From a virus: a DNA stretch of 22,161 nucleotides. The stretch is taken from positions 1-22,161 of IMG/VR virus record IMGVR_UViG_3300037285_000203; one strand, given 5' to 3'. The position numbers were made by a program, and so were the translations under genes. The number at the start of each line of letters is the position of its first letter. The stretch's first letter is position 1. Positions 4,227 through 22,161 of the stretch are shown one piece after another. Below the pieces are notes generated by a model, which was not told where the DNA came from, searched no databases, and saw nothing but the letters and a program-made list of their open reading frames with translations.

Positions 4227-4549
4227 GCTGTTTTTTCTTTCCTGACATGTGGATATTTAGCCATCAATCGTTCGCAGTTATCGCAACCGGTAACGCTGGC
4301 TTTTCTTTCAATTTGCAGCGGTTTAATCTCTGGTAAAAAAGCGGTTAGCTCACCGGCTTTAGGCTGGAATTTGGATTTTACAGGGTCAGCTATCCAGCTA
4401 AAAACAGCATTTTCAATGTCTTGTAAGTCATATTTTTGTAATACATGCCAAAAAATACTAATTTTTGCGTCAGTCATTGCCACATAATTTTGGCTAGAAT
4501 ACTGTTCGTTGAGTATGGCCATTGAATTTTGAAATGAAGGCTTAAACAT
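4223..4549 (-). CDS. putative helicase-loader-like replication protein
   Basis: 108 aa in the position of lambda P, overlapping the initiator gene by 8 nt. The first 70 residues are helical, with IFWHVLQKYDLQDIENAVFSWIADP followed by FQPKAGELTAF, a pattern recalling the small helicase-loader/inhibitor proteins of the G39P type. A C-terminal CDNC pair at about 90-93 may bind metal with further ligands. It is much shorter than lambda P (233 aa). If a loader, it would deliver host DnaB to the origin inside the neighbouring gene. The assignment is by position and faint similarity. Confidence 0.5.
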   Translation of the reverse strand: MFKPSFQNSMAILNEQYSSQNYVAMTDAKISIFWHVLQKYDLQDIENAVFSWIADPVKSKFQPKAGELTAFLPEIKPLQIERKASVTGCDNCERLMAKYPHVRKEKTA

Positions 4550-5405
4550 TGCCAGGCCTCCAATTTTGGATAGCTCTGGTGCTGTCTGCCATCGCTTGAC
4601 GTTGGTTGCTCTGTGATTGATTCTTACCTGTATTGAATTTTTTACTGTTTTGCATCCAGTTGCGCCAGGCTGGTAACCATTCTTCCCTTATCTCACCTTT
4701 GCTAGTGAAATGATCGACAAATTGTATTGTCTCAGTTTCTAAATCTACCGTTATTTTTTGTTCCAATGCCCAAGATTTCATTTCGCCAGTGACAGGAAAG
4801 TGTTTAGGTATTTTTGTAGATTGGTTTGGCGAAAAAATACCTTTTTTTGGGAGAGTGCTATGCGCGCTATATATAGTTTCTTTTGTATTAGTTTCTTTTG
4901 TAATAGTTTCTTGTTTCTTATGTGTTTCACTAGGTTGTGAACTTTTGTTCACTGTGCTGTGAACTTCGGTACACAAGGTTGTGAACTTCGGTACACTAGG
5001 TTGTGAACTTTGTTTACTTTGATTGTTCACTAGGTTGTGAACTCCCCATTCACTAACAATGCTATTTATGCCTACTTTTTTATCGTCTTTAAATATTACA
5101 TTTTTTGATAAAAGTGATTTTATTGTGTTGCTAACATGCCCTTTCGACATTTTAGCGTATTTCATTATTTGCGAATTTGTTACCCAATCTGACTTTTTAT
5201 GAAAGCTATACGTTTTACGTGATATTGCTAATAACACTCGCATTTCAACAGCGGTCAACAAAGCCTTGTTTTCTATTATCGTGTCGATTATATCGTGAGA
5301 ATACATTGTGTAGCCTTTACTCAAATCCGCTTTCACTACTGGCCTCTCAAAATTAATTATTTGTGCTGTATTTGCGGTGTTGATTTCTCTCTCGAAATTA
5401 CTCAT
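4542..5405 (-). CDS. O: replication initiator, lambda O-like
   Basis: 287 aa from the ATG at 5405 (MSNFEREINTAN), chosen because GGAG lies five bases upstream; the frame is open 42 bases further. N-terminal winged-helix domain of the phage O family (about 35-130: GYTMYSHDIIDTII, RVLLAISRKTYSFHKKSDWV, NSQIMKYAKMSKGHVSNTIK). A repetitive Ser/Thr/Lys linker (about 140-195) is encoded by the iterons and AT-rich repeats. The C-terminal FVDHFTSKGEIREEWLPAWRNWMQ block resembles the DnaT/O-type DNA-binding end. In lambda, O binds iterons within its own gene and recruits P and DnaB; the same layout is seen here. Confidence 0.85.
   Translation of the reverse strand: MSNFEREINTANTAQIINFERPVVKADLSKGYTMYSHDIIDTIIENKALLTAVEMRVLLAISRKTYSFHKKSDWVTNSQIMKYAKMSKGHVSNTIKSLLSKNVIFKDDKKVGINSIVSEWGVHNLVNNQSKQSSQPSVPKFTTLCTEVHSTVNKSSQPSETHKKQETITKETNTKETIYSAHSTLPKKGIFSPNQSTKIPKHFPVTGEMKSWALEQKITVDLETETIQFVDHFTSKGEIREEWLPAWRNWMQNSKKFNTGKNQSQSNQRQAMADSTRAIQNWRPGNV
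4874..4918 (-). repeat. AT-rich tandem repeat, candidate unwinding element
   Basis: Three 15-bp direct repeats (plus strand TAGTTTCTTTTGTAT at 4874, TAGTTTCTTTTGTAA at 4889, TAGTTTCTTGTTTCT at 4904) abut the iterons on the 3' side of the O gene, the side on which lambda has its AT-rich unwinding region. They encode an ETxTK-type peptide repeat in the protein linker. Confidence 0.6.
4926..5044 (-). repeat. replication-origin iterons inside the initiator gene
   Basis: Five 19-bp iterons start at 4926, 4948, 4970, 4992 and 5026. The best-formed copy on the plus strand is TTCACTAGGTTGTGAACTT, an imperfect dyad (TTCAC, 6 bases, GTGAA). The first four are spaced exactly 22 bp; the fifth is offset by 34 bp. 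Number, length, internal symmetry and location inside the initiator gene match the lambda ori plan. Because 22 is not a multiple of 3, the DNA repeat is conserved across different reading frames, so selection is on DNA rather than peptide. Confidence 0.85.
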
Positions 5406-6885: not shown

Positions 6886-7032
6886 TTATCTAAATGTTAA
6901 AATTTTGCCTTTTATAACTTCGGTCCAGGCTTTCTCTGATTTAATCCATTCGTCAAATAACCAAACAAAAACTAAATTGTGAACGCCGCGCTTGTAATAG
7001 AGCCCATCAGATATGTACTGTGCGTTTTTCAT
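6886..7032 (-). CDS. small hypothetical protein downstream of cro
   Basis: 48 aa (MKNAQYISDGLYYKRGVHNL and onward), aromatic and charged, with no membrane segment. Called because its ATG overlaps the cro-like TGA (ATGA), the frame is fully open and the next gene follows closely. The middle, LVFVWLFDEWIKSEKAW, is Trp-rich and could be an amphipathic helix. No family recognised. Genes in this place are expressed early with cro and often modulate host enzymes. Confidence 0.6.
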   Translation of the reverse strand: MKNAQYISDGLYYKRGVHNLVFVWLFDEWIKSEKAWTEVIKGKILTFR

Positions 7033-7271
7033 GCTGCTTTTGACTCTGGCGGGAAAACATCAGGACGTAGTTGTTGGCGTGTAACTTTATAATTAGTAAG
7101 CTTTTCAATAGTCACTGCAAACTTTGGAGAACATCTTTTTTTGGTGGCTGCGAGCCATACATGAACAAGTTGCTGGCTAAGTTTGAACTTGCCTGCTTCT
7201 GTAACCATTTTTGCAAATTGCGTTTGATTGCCCCCTGCTATTATGTCTATGGCTCGTTCTAGGTGTGTCAT
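7029..7271 (-). CDS. cro: Cro-like repressor
   Basis: 80 aa. Short helix-turn-helix protein of the Cro/YdaS type: ERAIDIIAGGNQTQFAKMV (helices 1-2), KLSQQLVHVWLAATKKRCSP (recognition region) and KFAVTIEKLTNYKVTRQQLRPDVFP, the typical C-terminal ending. It is transcribed leftward from the operator region and divergently from the CI-like gene, the standard lambda-type switch. Cro is expected to bind the same operators and lower pRM and early transcription during lytic growth. The ribosome-binding site is weak (GAG well upstream of ATG). Confidence 0.85.
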   Translation of the reverse strand: MTHLERAIDIIAGGNQTQFAKMVTEAGKFKLSQQLVHVWLAATKKRCSPKFAVTIEKLTNYKVTRQQLRPDVFPPESKAA

Positions 7272-7392: not shown

Positions 7393-7830
7393 ATGGGGTT
7401 GTTTTTAGTGCCGACTATTGGAAGTAGAATTACTACAGCTAGACGGAAGATGGATTTAAGCCAATTTGCTCTAGGTGAAATTGTAGGAACCACGCAGCAG
7501 GCCATTCAGAAAATTGAATCAGGCGACGTTGCACATTCAAGATATTTAGAGCCTATCTCTGCGGCATTGGGTGTTTCTTACAATTGGATTGTCAAGGGCG
7601 TTGCAAGTCCAGGCAGTGCAACTGAGTCTGAGGAATACATTATTACTGCTAGCGATGCGCTTTTAGATGCTCTAAATAGCTTTAAAGCTATAAGTCTGCA
7701 AAAGGGGGTTGATATGTCAGGGTTTGATTTTAACTTGCTTAAAGCGGCGTTTGACGTTTCTTTGAGAGGTAAATTAACAGGCGATTACGTAACCGCCGCA
7801 TTAAGATTAAGCACACTCAAAAAAGCTTAG
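7393..7830 (+). CDS. cI: CI-like phage repressor lacking peptidase domain
   Basis: 145 aa. An N-terminal XRE-type helix-turn-helix (about 8-68: IGSRITTARRKMDLSQFALGEIVGTTQQAIQKIESGDV, then SAALGVSYNWIVKG) is followed by a linker and a short helical C-terminal region. The C-terminus has no S24/LexA-type Ser-Lys peptidase motifs, so RecA-stimulated self-cleavage is not expected. A GTG at 7408 preceded by GGGG is an alternative start. It is transcribed away from cro across the operators. Its stop codon overlaps the stop of the convergent 104-aa gene, with a bidirectional hairpin across the junction. Confidence 0.85.
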   Translation: MGLFLVPTIGSRITTARRKMDLSQFALGEIVGTTQQAIQKIESGDVAHSRYLEPISAALGVSYNWIVKGVASPGSATESEEYIITASDALLDALNSFKAISLQKGVDMSGFDFNLLKAAFDVSLRGKLTGDYVTAALRLSTLKKA

Positions 7831-7844
7831 GCAGTTTTTTTGAG
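7816..7844. terminator. bidirectional AT-rich hairpin between convergent genes
   Basis: CTCAAAAAA (7816-7824) pairs with TTTTTTGAG (7836-7844), with a small GC step inside. It reads as A-tract, hairpin and T-tract on both strands, so it may terminate cI from one side and the SOS cassette from the other. The low GC content makes it leaky at best. It also encodes the C-termini of both proteins. Confidence 0.45.
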
Positions 7845-8141
7845 TTTTAGTGATAACTTAGAGCTCATATTTATAGCTTTAGCCTTTAGACATATGTACT
7901 CACCATAACTGTCTCTTGCCAAGGCATCTTCCGACTCCAAGAATGTTTTTACAACGGTCCTTAACTTACAGTTTTCTGAATACGTGATGTTCGTCACATT
8001 CTGACCAAAACTTACTACATTTGATTCTAATAAAGTATTTTTCCTATCGATAATTACAACTTTGAATTTCATTATTGAATAAATAAACATTAAAATAACG
8101 ACGATAAAAACAAATCCAGCGACTAAATATTTTGTTTCCAC
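7827..8141 (-). CDS. single-TM membrane protein of SOS cassette
   Basis: 104 aa from a GTG at 8141, three bases after the stop of the five-TM gene; GAAGGA lies about nine bases upstream. One N-terminal membrane segment (about 6-24, LVAGFVFIVVILMFIYSIM) is followed by a basic KFKVVIIDRKN and a soluble region of about 70 residues with two Cys (about 58 and 84), ending in a Lys-rich tail. Third gene of the LexA-controlled cassette and convergent with cI (3-nt overlap). Not recognised; partner of the five-TM protein, immunity protein or superinfection-exclusion factor are all possible. Confidence 0.65.
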   Translation of the reverse strand: METKYLVAGFVFIVVILMFIYSIMKFKVVIIDRKNTLLESNVVSFGQNVTNITYSENCKLRTVVKTFLESEDALARDSYGEYICLKAKAINMSSKLSLKLKKTA

Positions 8142-8144
8142 TGA

Positions 8145-8645
8145 TCATATCCTTCTTTTGAATACCGTTTTTGTCAGTACCCTTAAAACATAAACCAAAA
8201 TCACAAGGCTTAAAACCACGTTAGTGGTAGTAATGCTAGTCCTGTAAATAAATCCAACTAAATCAGTATCAAACACCGTTTTATCCAAATATCTAATGAT
8301 CTGCAAAGCTGTCATAAATAAGTAAGCGATTATTACAAACTCACTGACTCTATCGCGCAGTAAATTGCCCCGACTCAAACACCATACTACAATAACAATG
8401 AAAATAGTATTAGTAATGGAAAAGCCTAAATACCAAGCAGTATTTATTTCAAAAAGGTAATCTTCTAGATAAAAAAGTTTCTTTAATTCACTTCTATACC
8501 ACTGCTGGAATATATCAAGAATGACTACAGAAGAAATAACTACAATAAATGCGGTGACTTTTCTTACGCATGATACATAAACAATTAACGAAAAAATTAT
8601 AATTCCCAACGATAAACTTTCAATACACGTAATCAAGTCCCACAT
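8145..8645 (-). CDS. five-TM membrane protein of SOS cassette
   Basis: 166 aa with about five hydrophobic spans (near 8-26, 31-49, 72-91, 102-119 and 137-158) and a basic C-terminus (LTKTVFKRRI). Good ribosome-binding site (GAGGAAT five bases before ATG). It follows the secreted-peptide gene by 19 bases and precedes the single-TM gene by 3, so the three form one operon. No catalytic motif or known family is apparent. An inner-membrane protein co-expressed with a secreted peptide under SOS control could be an immunity, export or depolarising factor. Confidence 0.7.
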   Translation of the reverse strand: MWDLITCIESLSLGIIIFSLIVYVSCVRKVTAFIVVISSVVILDIFQQWYRSELKKLFYLEDYLFEINTAWYLGFSITNTIFIVIVVWCLSRGNLLRDRVSEFVIIAYLFMTALQIIRYLDKTVFDTDLVGFIYRTSITTTNVVLSLVILVYVLRVLTKTVFKRRI

Positions 8646-8664
8646 ACTTTATTCCTCAGTTATT

Positions 8665-8922
8665 TTATCTTTTTGGTGGTTTTGGTGGTTCAGAACCGCC
8701 TCCATTACCCAAGCTAGATGCGCCATACCCCCTTCTACTTGGTGGTTCAGACCCGCCGCCATTGCCTCTTGTAGAGAATTTGCAAAGCTTTGGAACAATC
8801 TTACAAACTAAAGTTTCATTAGACTTTTTATATCTTTTATTTTCTTCACTTGGCTTGGCTGTTACAGCACTCGTAAAAATTGTAAAAAGAAATCCAACAA
8901 ATAATAGTCCAATCAATTTCAT
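8665..8922 (-). CDS. secreted cationic Gly/Pro-rich peptide, LexA-controlled
   Basis: 85 aa. Sec signal peptide (MKLIGLLFVGFLFTIFTSAVTA, cut after residue 22), then a 63-residue basic mature part. This has a charged segment (SEENKRYKKSNE), two Cys at 40 and 47 that could form a disulphide (VCKIVPKLCK), and a C-terminal tail with a repeated NGGGSEPP module (about 53-60 and 72-79) ending in PPKPPKR. AGGAG lies eight bases before ATG. It is the first gene behind the LexA box and promoter at 8943-8995. No family recognised; bacteriocin-like peptide, cell-wall-binding protein or envelope stress factor are hypotheses. Confidence 0.7.
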   Translation of the reverse strand: MKLIGLLFVGFLFTIFTSAVTAKPSEENKRYKKSNETLVCKIVPKLCKFSTRGNGGGSEPPSRRGYGASSLGNGGGSEPPKPPKR

Positions 8923-8942
8923 GTTATTAACTCCTGTTGTGA

Positions 8943-8995
8943 CTGTAGAAATATACAGACATGGGCAATATACAGAAGTAACACAAGCGATTCAA
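8943..8995 (-). promoter_or_regulatory. SOS (LexA) box and promoter of three-gene cassette
   Basis: CTGTAGAAATATACAG at 8943-8958 is a perfect CTGT-N8-ACAG LexA box with an AT-rich centre. Immediately upstream on the minus strand are TTGAAT (8995-8990), a 17-base spacer and TATATT (8972-8967), so the start site near 8960 abuts the box. A degenerate second box (CATG-N8-ACAG, 8960-8975) overlaps the -10. This geometry should give tight LexA repression and SOS induction. Confidence 0.8.
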
Positions 8996-16148: not shown

Positions 16149-17423
16149 ATGGACAAAAAGATATTAAAACGCCTTGAATCTACTCAGGGCGTATCTTTAA
16201 GGGGTAACGCTCTATTAATATCTTTTAATTTACCAGACCGGCGGCACCAGGTTAAACGCTCTCTTGGTATCGAACCCACCATAGACAACATTCTAAAAGC
16301 CCGTAAAAAATTATCATCTATTGACCTCGATGTTGAGTTTGGATTGTATAACAACGATCAGTTAGCATTCTGGCAAAAACATTTTCCAAGTGATCGCGGC
16401 GCACCTAAGTCATGCTATGAAGTAATGTCAGATTATTATGAATATAAACTTCCTAAAGTTTCCGCATCCACATCGTCAGGCATTAGCATTTCAATAGATA
16501 AGTTTAAAAGTGAGATTGGAGGCATACTGGCCAAGTCGCTAACAACAAGAGATTTAGAGCGAGTACAAACGACATTCATCAACTCAGGTTTAAAAGCCAG
16601 CACCATAAACACGTACTTTGACAGAATAGCGCCAGCGTTCAAGCGAGCACTGAGAGATAAAATTTTAGTAGATAATCCCTTTGCTGACTTTGATCATCTA
16701 TCAACTAAACATGAAGTTGATGATGTGGATCCCTTTGACTCGTCAGAGTACAACCGCATTATTGAAAAAATCAAAGAGCCAAGTGATCGGAATATGGTCA
16801 CGCTATTATTTTGGACCGGTTTACGTCCAGGTGAATTAGCCGCTTTAGCCTGGGAAGACATTGATTTAAAAAAACGTGTGTTAAAAGTTGTTAGAAATAA
16901 ATCAGGCAGTAAATACAAACTACCCAAAACTGAATCGTCAGTTAGAGAAATAGAACTACTTGAGCCAGCTTATCAAGCATTACTCGCACAGAAAGAAATT
17001 ACCTTTATGCTGAAAAAATTTGATGTTCCTGTAGTCTTGGCATTCAAAGACATAAGGACTGATGTTTGCAGGTTTGTTTTCTACCGCATACCAGGTGGCA
17101 ATAATGGAGGGGGATCTAAACCATCACCTTTTAGCACTTCACAAATATTTAATAATGAGAAGTGGAATAACTTTTTAAGAGTGGCCGGTGTGCGTTGGCG
17201 TAGACCATATCAAACTAGACATAGTTATGCGTCTTGGTTGTTGTCAAATGGTGCAGAGCCATTATATGTTGCCAAACAGATGGGTCACAAAGATTGGGGC
17301 ATGATCAGGAACATTTATGGCAAATGGATCGAACAAGAACCGCTGTCATATCGTGATGCGTTGAATGAAAAATTAGGCTTCAGTGGAGCATATATGGAGC
17401 ATAATAAAGGTATAAACAGTTAA
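16149..17423 (+). CDS. int: tyrosine-family phage integrase
   Basis: 424 aa with the full integrase layout: N-terminal arm-binding region (1-85), SAM-like core-binding domain (about 90-182) and catalytic domain (195-405). Catalytic residues: R226 in TGLRPGE, K260 in LPKTESSVREI, YQTR at 354-357 (tyrosine in place of the usual histidine of HxxR, a known variant), H380 in MGHKD, and nucleophile Y390 in RNIYGKW. It mediates attP x attB recombination and, with Xis, excision. The 3' end itself carries a repeat belonging to the presumed attP. Length and order are normal; no truncation. Confidence 0.92.
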   Translation: MDKKILKRLESTQGVSLRGNALLISFNLPDRRHQVKRSLGIEPTIDNILKARKKLSSIDLDVEFGLYNNDQLAFWQKHFPSDRGAPKSCYEVMSDYYEYKLPKVSASTSSGISISIDKFKSEIGGILAKSLTTRDLERVQTTFINSGLKASTINTYFDRIAPAFKRALRDKILVDNPFADFDHLSTKHEVDDVDPFDSSEYNRIIEKIKEPSDRNMVTLLFWTGLRPGELAALAWEDIDLKKRVLKVVRNKSGSKYKLPKTESSVREIELLEPAYQALLAQKEITFMLKKFDVPVVLAFKDIRTDVCRFVFYRIPGGNNGGGSKPSPFSTSQIFNNEKWNNFLRVAGVRWRRPYQTRHSYASWLLSNGAEPLYVAKQMGHKDWGMIRNIYGKWIEQEPLSYRDALNEKLGFSGAYMEHNKGINS

Positions 17424-20379: not shown

Positions 20380-20550
20380 ATGAGTAGGAAAACATCAAGA
20401 GAATTAATCGACGAGTACAACAGTGGTCGTCCACGCAAAAGTGCTCTAAAAATATTCTTAGAGCATTTTAAGTTTTGGGGTTTCTTTTATGTGATTGGCT
20501 TCCTTGCCTTTATTATAATTAGTGATGTTTATATAAAGTGGTTTACTTAA
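20380..20550 (+). CDS. small TM protein nested antisense in late operon
   Basis: 56 aa, ATG at 20380, GAGAG upstream. A polar, basic N-terminus (MSRKTSRELIDEYNSGRPRK) is followed by a strong C-terminal membrane segment (FWGFFYVIGFLAFIIISDVY). It reads against the late genes, between the polyvalent-protein stop (8-nt overlap) and the fibre start, and has a short palindrome (CTCAAACTTTGAG, 20356-20368) just upstream. An independently transcribed membrane protein inserted among late genes is the usual form of a lysogenic-conversion (moron) gene such as superinfection exclusion. Family unknown. Confidence 0.6.
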   Translation: MSRKTSRELIDEYNSGRPRKSALKIFLEHFKFWGFFYVIGFLAFIIISDVYIKWFT

Positions 20551-22161
20551 CTTTATTATATCGACTGTTAAACCTGGCAACCGTTTCTTTCATCTGATCT
20601 TGAACTACATCAAGTTGCCGTTCTCGCTCTGCAAATGCTAACGAGTCGTCAGATTCAATCCTGTCACGCTTCTCTCGTAGTGCTTTCATGCGCTGGTCTG
20701 AGATTTTCATCAATCCTTTTAATCTAAACGTCCCTATATTCTCCTGTCTATATTCTAATTTTTCTTTACCTCGAAGTAATTTGAACTGAGCCTCTACATT
20801 CTTTAGTTCTTGCCTGGCATCATAAAAACTACTTATATCTGCAAAGGGCCGTATTTGACCGTTAAGCTGTCTGGCAAACGGAATGCTATTCAATTCAAGA
20901 TTTCCACCTCTTGCGACAGTGTTAGCGTTATCGGTCGCTCTCATAGAGAATCGATACAATCCACCTAATGTAAATTCCATCATATGCTCAATTGAGTCTG
21001 GGCTAATATCAACGTAGCCACTTTTGTACTCGCTTCCCCCACCTAAACCCATAAACTCGTTCATAAACTTTGACACAACTTTGTAAGCTTCTGGTGTGCT
21101 ACGCATAGACATTTCAGCATCAGCTTTTTGAGGACCAAAGGACAAGTTTTCACGGTAGATTTGACCACCGAAGAAGTTTTTGTTTATGGCTAGTTCAACT
21201 GCTGGCTTGCCAATCGTCGGTATGCCTGCAAGTAACAGCGATTCGGCTGCGTTATCACCGACCGGCGAACCAAGTGGAATGAATGAGCCATAAGCAGATA
21301 AAGCCATTTCAGCAAGCAAGTCACCTTTCTTACGTATTTTGCTATTAACTGCTGCCTCGGCAGCATCACCTAAGTTATAGAAAATGTTGTAACCATAAGG
21401 CAAAGGTACTTTCCAATACTCGCCAGGCTCACCACCTAGCAGTGATTTTAAAATAACTAAGTTACGCTCTCTAACGCCTTTCGGTATTTTATCCCAATAG
21501 GGCTCACCGTCTTCATCCTCACCACCCATTTCACGACTCAGCAAAGCAAATCCCACGGCACTCATGGTAATGCCGCCTGCAATTTTTTGCGCTCGGTTTA
21601 GCTTGCGCTTGCCTGTCTGTTCATCTTTTATCGGAGTGAGTATTGCTCTAGCAAAGTTGGCATTACCTTGAACTGCTGCATTGAAGAACATAAACAAACT
21701 GTTGAGCAATGTACCCATTTCACCTTTACGGTTAAAGTTGACCGTTAAGTTTTTGGCAAAGCTTGCGGATTTTACTCTGCTCACGTTGGCTTTTCTGGCT
21801 TCAATATACGCAGATAACCTAACGCCGTTCTCAATCGAGCTATTAGCGTGTTCGACAAAATCCAATACCGTCTTCTTGGTTCGTGCTAGGTTACCTTTAA
21901 AGTTTTTCTTACCCATATTTAATTGGGACTCTAAATCTTTAGCAATCTGGTTTACGTCTTTAGAATCAAAGTAACCAGTTTTGGCACCGTCTTCTAAAAA
22001 CTCAGTGATATACGTGCTAATTTCACTGTCCTGGTCCAGCGTACCCCTAGAGTGTTGCCATAGTGCGCGAACGGCTTTAGTTGTTCCTTTAACCATCTTG
22101 GTAGCAATAGCTTTATCTTTTACTTTTCCGTCAGTTATATCTTGTTCAGCAAGCGCATTGA
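20543..22161 (-). CDS. large polyvalent / DNA-ejection-associated protein (C-terminal part)
   Basis: The frame runs off the right edge; the visible part is about 539 aa and continues in frame upstream of the first Met at 22096, so it is the C-terminal portion of a larger protein. It contains the LPD38-like signature of large polyvalent phage proteins: SIENGVRLSAYIEARKANVSRVKSASFAKNLTVNFNRKGEMGTLLNSLFMFFNAAVQG, then PKGVRERNLVIL, YGYNIFYNLGDA and NFFGGQIYRENLSFG. A long charged helical C-terminus follows (KALREKRDRIESDDSLAFAERE). Such proteins are packaged and injected with the DNA; in short-tailed phages they are internal virion proteins. Precise role here is inferred. Confidence 0.75.
   Translation of the reverse strand, partial: NALAEQDITDGKVKDKAIATKMVKGTTKAVRALWQHSRGTLDQDSEISTYITEFLEDGAKTGYFDSKDVNQIAKDLESQLNMGKKNFKGNLARTKKTVLDFVEHANSSIENGVRLSAYIEARKANVSRVKSASFAKNLTVNFNRKGEMGTLLNSLFMFFNAAVQGNANFARAILTPIKDEQTGKRKLNRAQKIAGGITMSAVGFALLSREMGGEDEDGEPYWDKIPKGVRERNLVILKSLLGGEPGEYWKVPLPYGYNIFYNLGDAAEAAVNSKIRKKGDLLAEMALSAYGSFIPLGSPVGDNAAESLLLAGIPTIGKPAVELAINKNFFGGQIYRENLSFGPQKADAEMSMRSTPEAYKVVSKFMNEFMGLGGGSEYKSGYVDISPDSIEHMMEFTLGGLYRFSMRATDNANTVARGGNLELNSIPFARQLNGQIRPFADISSFYDARQELKNVEAQFKLLRGKEKLEYRQENIGTFRLKGLMKISDQRMKALREKRDRIESDDSLAFAERERQLDVVQDQMKETVARFNSRYNKVK

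Follow-up and report, generated by a model that had tools for sequence, protein, structure and literature searches.

The three-gene operon described here lies in a phage immunity region and encodes an exported peptide, a five-transmembrane (5-TM) protein, and a single-transmembrane (1-TM) protein. The peptide and the 5-TM protein very probably form a charge-matched cognate pair, a conclusion that rests on covariation between the two proteins and is much surer than any output through the phage repressor. As a whole, the operon can be read, with a probability of roughly 0.4, as a prophage module of an exported peptide and its membrane partners that forms part of the phage immunity unit and has the state of the lysogen as its output. 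The peptide/5-TM/1-TM trio is apparently an undescribed family.

The window (the whole stretch of DNA analysed) is an IMG/VR virus record of 22,161 bases. The record is a fragment; thus, further SOS genes may be missing from it. Its genes follow a lambdoid order, with a cro-like protein of the YdaS family (7029-7271, - strand; PF15943, E 4e-13), a divergent cI-like repressor of 145 aa (7393-7830, +) that contains HTH_3 only and no S24 peptidase, and a RecE-like exonuclease and an integrase, both on the + strand. The trio operon (8922-7827, -) is situated, as the preliminary description correctly placed it, between the cI-like gene and a leftward-type (pL-type) operon that runs from 9121 on (+). 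It contains the genes for the peptide (85 aa; 8665-8922, -), the 5-TM protein (166 aa; 8145-8645, -), and the 1-TM protein (104 aa, GTG start; 7827-8141, -). The three genes can be taken as real, since homologues of all of them are found in the same order, and the gaps of 19 nt (peptide/5-TM) and 3 nt (5-TM/1-TM), with all genes on the minus strand, agree with the single tight operon that had been proposed. The operon is convergent (tail-to-tail) with cI, the cI-like and 1-TM stops overlapping by 4 nt. Inside cI, 30 nt past the last trio stop, lies a weak terminator-like hairpin (7780-7797, -; 1 found, 1.4 expected in shuffles), and the trio transcript could end there. Elsewhere in the window, positions 20543-22096 (-) encode the C-terminal portion of a phage protein of very large size, truncated where the record stops, which matches PHROG 616 (2793 positions) and has a weak DarB-like match.

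The trio belongs to a gene family that lies mostly on chromosomes of the Rheinheimera family, a point absent from the preliminary description, as were the conserved GNGGGxEPP motif of the peptide and the link to repressors without S24 that are discussed below. Profile searches detected the 5-TM protein first in 52 of 297 and then in 92 of 397 Rheinheimera-family genomes, a single genome having as many as nine or ten copies; Rheinheimera tangshanensis and R. faecalis (L014, L015), for example, carry the three-gene set on the chromosome. A class-wide search gave a single positive among 369 Gammaproteobacteria genomes, namely the query's own, and the trio family looks confined to the Rheinheimera family. 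In most loci the order is small peptide gene, 5-TM gene, 1-TM gene. Almost every 5-TM homologue has an upstream peptide gene, so the genes are co-inherited, contrary to the refuting case of no co-inheritance named in the preliminary description. Scanning IMG/VR DNA for the peptide motif yielded three further phage contigs with the trio (L049, L053, and L055); 5-TM peptide patterns gave no IMG/VR match. The set also occurs on plasmids, where weak, unannotated tblastn matches, present in 59 plasmid records, represent the three genes; these lie beside sul1/qacE on 2 of the 3 plasmids read (NZ_MZ465533.1, NZ_KP688397.1, and NZ_OR492670.1; L011-L013). The copy on large Vibrio and Acinetobacter plasmids, beside sul1/qacE, is nearly identical to that of R. 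tangshanensis, and an IncC Klebsiella plasmid has an incomplete copy that is closer to the R. faecalis type. Plasmid trios probably hitchhike with a Rheinheimera-derived fragment, and the L013 copy is probably decayed.

Searches for known relatives leave the family unnamed. No Pfam or NCBIfam model was found for the 5-TM protein, and for the trio Pfam, NCBIfam, PADLOC, and PDB gave no match. The sole match is PHROG 31674, an unnamed family that is likewise a 5-TM protein and that matches 28 of 29 5-TM family members (best E 4e-14); it comes without an attached peptide, partner, or mechanism. Weak Pfam matches to YbhQ (E 0.018), SelK, and YxzE were judged to be chance. Among PADLOC defence profiles the best E is 0.012, for the window 1-TM protein, with none for the peptide or the 5-TM protein. 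A profile search of PDB sequences with the 5-TM protein was negative, and its best Foldseek match among PDB folds (E 0.41) is not significant. A designed helical bundle (VIA Z 9.2) and GPCR/rhodopsin-like folds (Z near 7) were set aside, their scores lying in the range of unrelated bundles. In BFVD, three unnamed phage proteins were matched by fold with probability 1.0 but E of 0.04-0.2. Neither the window 5-TM protein or peptide nor the relatives L026, L032, and L055 match INPHARED phages, and megablast of the whole window against phages gave no match. A literature search, with subscription papers and preprints mostly outside its scope, found no description of the family.

Expression of the operon appears to be under SOS-type control. 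A LexA box, CTGTAGAAATATACAG (8943-8958), is present, as had been reported, and lies 20 nt upstream of the operon; it is the sole CTGT-N8-ACAG in the window (0.21 per window expected by chance) and agrees with CTGTATATATATACAG at 14 of 16 positions. Taken alone, a single box in the window is weak evidence of a LexA site. Across the family, LexA-like boxes matching at 13/16 positions or better lie upstream of 7 of 94 peptide genes, where about 0.5 would be expected from random stretches of the same loci (0.55% with such a box), and five of the seven stand at roughly -31 to -44 relative to the likely peptide start. Because boxes are enriched family-wide, the window box is not a fluke. The seven boxes all belong to copies linked to a repressor (7/35 vs 0/59, p 0.0007, a value to be taken as indicative, given that the 13/16 threshold was set after the window box was seen). 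They include L064 and L141, the phages whose repressors are nearest to that of the window (54% and 43% identical, respectively). The box begins 8 nt downstream of the -10 of a promoter-like TTGAAT-N17-TATATT (8967-8995, -; 9/12 matches). The promoter had been called well formed; it is correctly placed before the box and the RBS, but its match is no better than chance, since 7 promoter-like matches are found in the window vs 7.2 in shuffles. A second, weak LexA-like site, CTGTATAAATAATCAG (1498-1513; 3 mismatches), is present near the lysis-side genes.

The peptide is predicted to have a Sec signal that is cleaved after VTA (residue 22). The predicted mature peptide, of 63 aa, is cationic (14 K/R vs 5 D/E) and contains a cysteine pair (C40-x6-C47) and two GNGGGSEPP motifs, at residues 53-61 (8740-8766, -) and, as read in the peptide sequence, 72-80 (8683-8709, -). 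Homologous exported peptides are found in relatives, and the window peptide shares with them the GG..xPP motif in a small protein encoded upstream of the 5-TM gene. Family peptides carry 1-5 motif copies, of GNGGGxEPP, LGSGSGNEPP, or GGGIRPP type, whatever their leader. By crude pattern rules, a Sec-like leader is present in 38 of 94 peptides, 26 of which also have a C-x3-7-C pair; 31 have a FlgM-like N-terminus without cysteine, and about 11 a double-Gly-like leader. The corresponding profile matches are weak (FlgM-like, E 0.009; ComC-like, E 0.057, in one relative). Since the leaders differ while the C-terminal motif stays the same, these data suggest that the motif acts outside the cytoplasm. 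Its association with the 5-TM protein is also seen at the DNA level. Among 397 genomes scanned, GNGGGxEPP is encoded at 11 sites in 7 genomes, all seven of which have a 5-TM gene, and 9 of the 11 sites directly adjoin one; the reversed control pattern has 0 occurrences in the same genomes. Two other proteins have similar sequences. The window integrase (16149-17423, +) contains NNGGGSKPSP, probably a coincidence. In a prophage of genome G043, a 143-aa ORF beside cro (L155:4373-4804, -), with a C-terminal TM segment, carries five different motifs (GNGGGIEPP, GYGEQPT, GNGGGNEPP, GDGEEPP, and GDGSGGKPT), the prophage's own trio being of the NRPP/E118 type; this ORF is possibly a multi-specific decoy or cross-talk protein.

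The 5-TM protein is modelled by AlphaFold2 as a five-helix bundle (pLDDT 94.8). Net loop charges over 114 sequences alternate (N -0.8, L1 +1.4, L2 -0.2, L3 +1.8, L4 -0.9, C +2.3); therefore, by the positive-inside rule, the protein is predicted to be N-out/C-in. In this topology the conserved residues W71, Y72, Q115, R118, D121, R/K122, Y134, and N142 are all on the periplasmic side. The window protein has the full outer-face set of W-Y, QxxRxxDR (with K at 122), Y, and N; Q115-xx-R118-xx-D121-K122 (codons at 8280-8303, -) forms a conserved face near the periplasmic end of helix 4. An AgrB-like protease or CAAX-type 5-TM protein was considered and dropped, there being no conserved Cys/His pair; the only candidate, H90, is on the cytoplasmic side. 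The 1-TM protein is modelled, with moderate confidence, as one long helix, with a predicted cytoplasmic tail that resembles those of L032/L064 and L141. Thus, the Sec-like leader and the TM predictions support the proposal of an exported peptide with membrane partners. In one locus (L093; G205:C1, 4842-7925), five 5-TM genes stand in tandem with no peptide or 1-TM gene between them.

The first motif covaries with residue 118 of the 5-TM protein. This pairing was first spotted by eye, as EPP peptides with Arg118 and RPP peptides with Asp118, and was tested afterwards. When the peptide residue before the P is acidic, position 118 is R/K in 44 of 47 copies and never D/E; when it is basic, 118 is D/E/G/A in 16 of 17. 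In a scan of all well-filled 5-TM columns, none shares more mutual information with the peptide charge class than column 118 (0.343, the next being 0.154 at position 122), and 0 of 20,000 label shuffles attain this value. The remaining columns, which have one tree in common with column 118, thereby control for relatedness. When strict PP cores are required and sequences are deduplicated at 60% identity, R/K118 accompanies 24 of 28 acidic and 0 of 8 basic peptides (p = 1.6e-5), the basic ones pairing with D, E, G, or A. Strongly supported branches provide only 7 independent contrasts, of which 4.8 are concordant and 0 discordant (median p 0.06). The window conforms, with Glu in the peptide and R118 in the 5-TM protein. 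Covariation of this kind is strong evidence for direct recognition between peptide and 5-TM protein, in which the contact itself is inferred.

Charge-matched pairs also strengthen the analogy, drawn in the preliminary description, to bacteriocin/immunity operons. In a toxin/immunity system, the SOS-released peptide would be a bacteriocin-like or self-directed envelope toxin, the 5-TM protein its cognate immunity protein, and the 1-TM protein an accessory, and the lysogen would use the system against non-lysogens or competing prophages. This explanation is tentative in its own right, yet nearly as likely as control of lysogeny. It accounts for the charge-swap pairing, for SOS control as in colicins, and for the several differently paired copies per genome. 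The L093 array of 5-TM genes without peptides, set against only 2 of 11 GNGGGxEPP sites away from a 5-TM gene, fits immunity genes as well; that peptide orphans are rarer than 5-TM orphans speaks against the lysogeny reading and fits toxin/immunity at least equally. Like class II microcins and bacteriocins with their membrane immunity proteins, the trio combines a small exported peptide, a membrane match, and SOS control, and some trio peptides share their double-Gly-like leaders (ComC-like, E 0.057). However, beyond that one weak leader match there is none to known bacteriocin/immunity families in Pfam or NCBIfam, nor is a dedicated exporter adjacent in the window. The repeated GNGGGxEPP motif, variable leaders, and repressor link are also unlike those systems, and the repeated tail, rich in Gly and Pro, does not have the look of a membrane-active sequence. 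Furthermore, a toxin/immunity function leaves unexplained the absence of S24 from linked repressors and the co-divergence of CI and trio. The LexA box, the membrane proteins, and the peptide-5-TM covariation could also be explained by an SOS-induced membrane toxin causing TisB- or Hok-like growth arrest, in which the 5-TM protein is a channel and the peptide its external lid or antitoxin. This is improbable, for the 5-TM protein is a well-packed bundle of 166 aa rather than a single amphipathic helix, and chromosomal copies persist at conserved sites.

What sets the control of lysogeny beside a cargo toxin as a serious alternative is that the trio is linked to repressors without a self-cleavage domain. 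A short convergent repressor is present within 1.3 kb at 38 of 112 5-TM loci; as a control, a repressor is near 12 of 310 other genes taken from some of the same loci, and 9 of these 12 are trio genes. Peptidase_S24 is found in 0 of 37 linked repressors scanned, HTH_3 in 27, and Phage_CI_repr in 18. The trio is tail-to-tail with a short cI-like repressor in all four phages examined in this respect (window, L049, L053, and L055), whereas S24 repressors are found in the three relatives without a trio that are closest by RecE (69-73% identical). After deduplication, similarity of CI correlates with that of the 5-TM (r 0.48) and 1-TM (r 0.46) proteins, compared with r 0.38 between 5-TM and 1-TM and r 0.20 between the pL-side neighbour and 5-TM. 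Because CI and trio track each other as well as 5-TM and 1-TM do, we therefore treat CI plus trio as one inherited module rather than chance cargo, to which shared phage ancestry contributes. About two thirds of trios have neither an adjoining repressor nor a LexA box; thus, the ancestral function of the trio must be independent of CI. Most repressor-linked trios likewise lack the box.

The layout also allows transcription itself to be the effector: a LexA-driven transcript running antisense into cI would lower the repressor, and the proteins would be secondary. In its favour, CI and 1-TM genes are tail-to-tail, with 3' ends -38 to +74 nt apart in 22 of 31 loci. It is nonetheless very unlikely, since the transcript may stop at the hairpin 30 nt beyond the trio, covariation reflects selection on the proteins, and most copies have no LexA box.

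The closest systems combine a non-cleavable repressor with a LexA-controlled antirepressor, as in Gifsy-1 and -2 (GfoR/GfoA; also 186 Tum and N15 AntC). Gifsy repressors, of 136 aa, are non-cleavable and are induced via LexA-controlled antirepressors (PMC3121763). The window resembles these phages in having a short repressor (145 aa) without a self-cleavage S24 domain and a LexA box before a partner locus (PMC3121763). Gifsy antirepressors, in contrast, are small, soluble, and encoded away from the immunity region, whereas the LexA-driven locus of the window encodes an exported peptide and two membrane proteins beside cI. Lambda rexA/rexB are also located between cI and pL and include one multi-TM protein. 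Unlike them, the trio is on the opposite strand from cI and convergent with it, rather than co-transcribed, has its own LexA-box promoter, and encodes an exported peptide; in addition, no Rex family appears among its Pfam or PHROGs matches. Strand, sequence, and promoter thus exclude Rex, in agreement with the preliminary description. A superinfection exclusion or anti-phage system expressed in the lysogen from the rex position would suit the membrane proteins and the placement between cI and the pL-type operon in the same four distinct phages. It is an unlikely explanation, given that there is no Rex or PADLOC match, that a LexA-controlled system is weakly expressed in an unstressed lysogen, and that an exported peptide paired with a 5-TM protein is not a Rex feature. 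The true rex position is occupied in L064, where a 146-aa exported protein with no Pfam match (4313-4753, +) is encoded between cI and the trio.

Taken together, the pairing, the outward-facing site, the co-inheritance with non-cleavable repressors, and the SOS box are suggestive of a module that senses a peptide and feeds into lysogeny. In this module, DNA damage would free the LexA box, and the peptide would be made and exported through Sec. The GNGGGSEPP tail would then dock on the side of the 5-TM protein that faces the periplasm, where Glu of the peptide would meet Arg118; from there the 5-TM and 1-TM proteins together would relay the signal to the cytoplasm. The most likely output would be the lysogen state, via the adjacent non-cleavable repressor, with a presumed step from 5-TM/1-TM to CI. 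The module would thus supply or tune an SOS or neighbour signal that a non-cleavable repressor cannot sense itself.

A more specific form of this reading, and a rather doubtful one, is a Gram-negative counterpart of arbitrium, in which the phage would encode both a damage-made exported peptide and the inner-membrane receptor for it, and this receptor would control a non-cleavable repressor. In the arbitrium system (AimP/AimR) of Bacillus phages, the exported peptide is likewise encoded by the phage, carries a short active motif at its C-terminus, and has a cognate partner; control of lysogeny would be a further likeness. However, AimR is a cytoplasmic DNA-binding receptor, whereas the trio partner is a predicted inner-membrane protein with its conserved site facing outward, in Gram-negative hosts. 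Beside the peptide gene there is no AimR-type cytoplasmic TPR/HTH receptor; the adjacent HTH protein is cI-like and has no TPR. If such a counterpart exists, lysogens would signal damage to each other, with specificity coming from one charged residue pair.

Whichever function applies, sequence data alone suffice to match a peptide with its membrane partner, through one pair of charged residues, and this widespread family is tied to phages whose repressors are unable to sense DNA damage by cleavage. Stress or neighbour sensing by such prophages thus becomes directly testable with point mutants, and in function the trio may stand for a new system of peptide signalling or of exclusion, or for a new class of bacteriocin.
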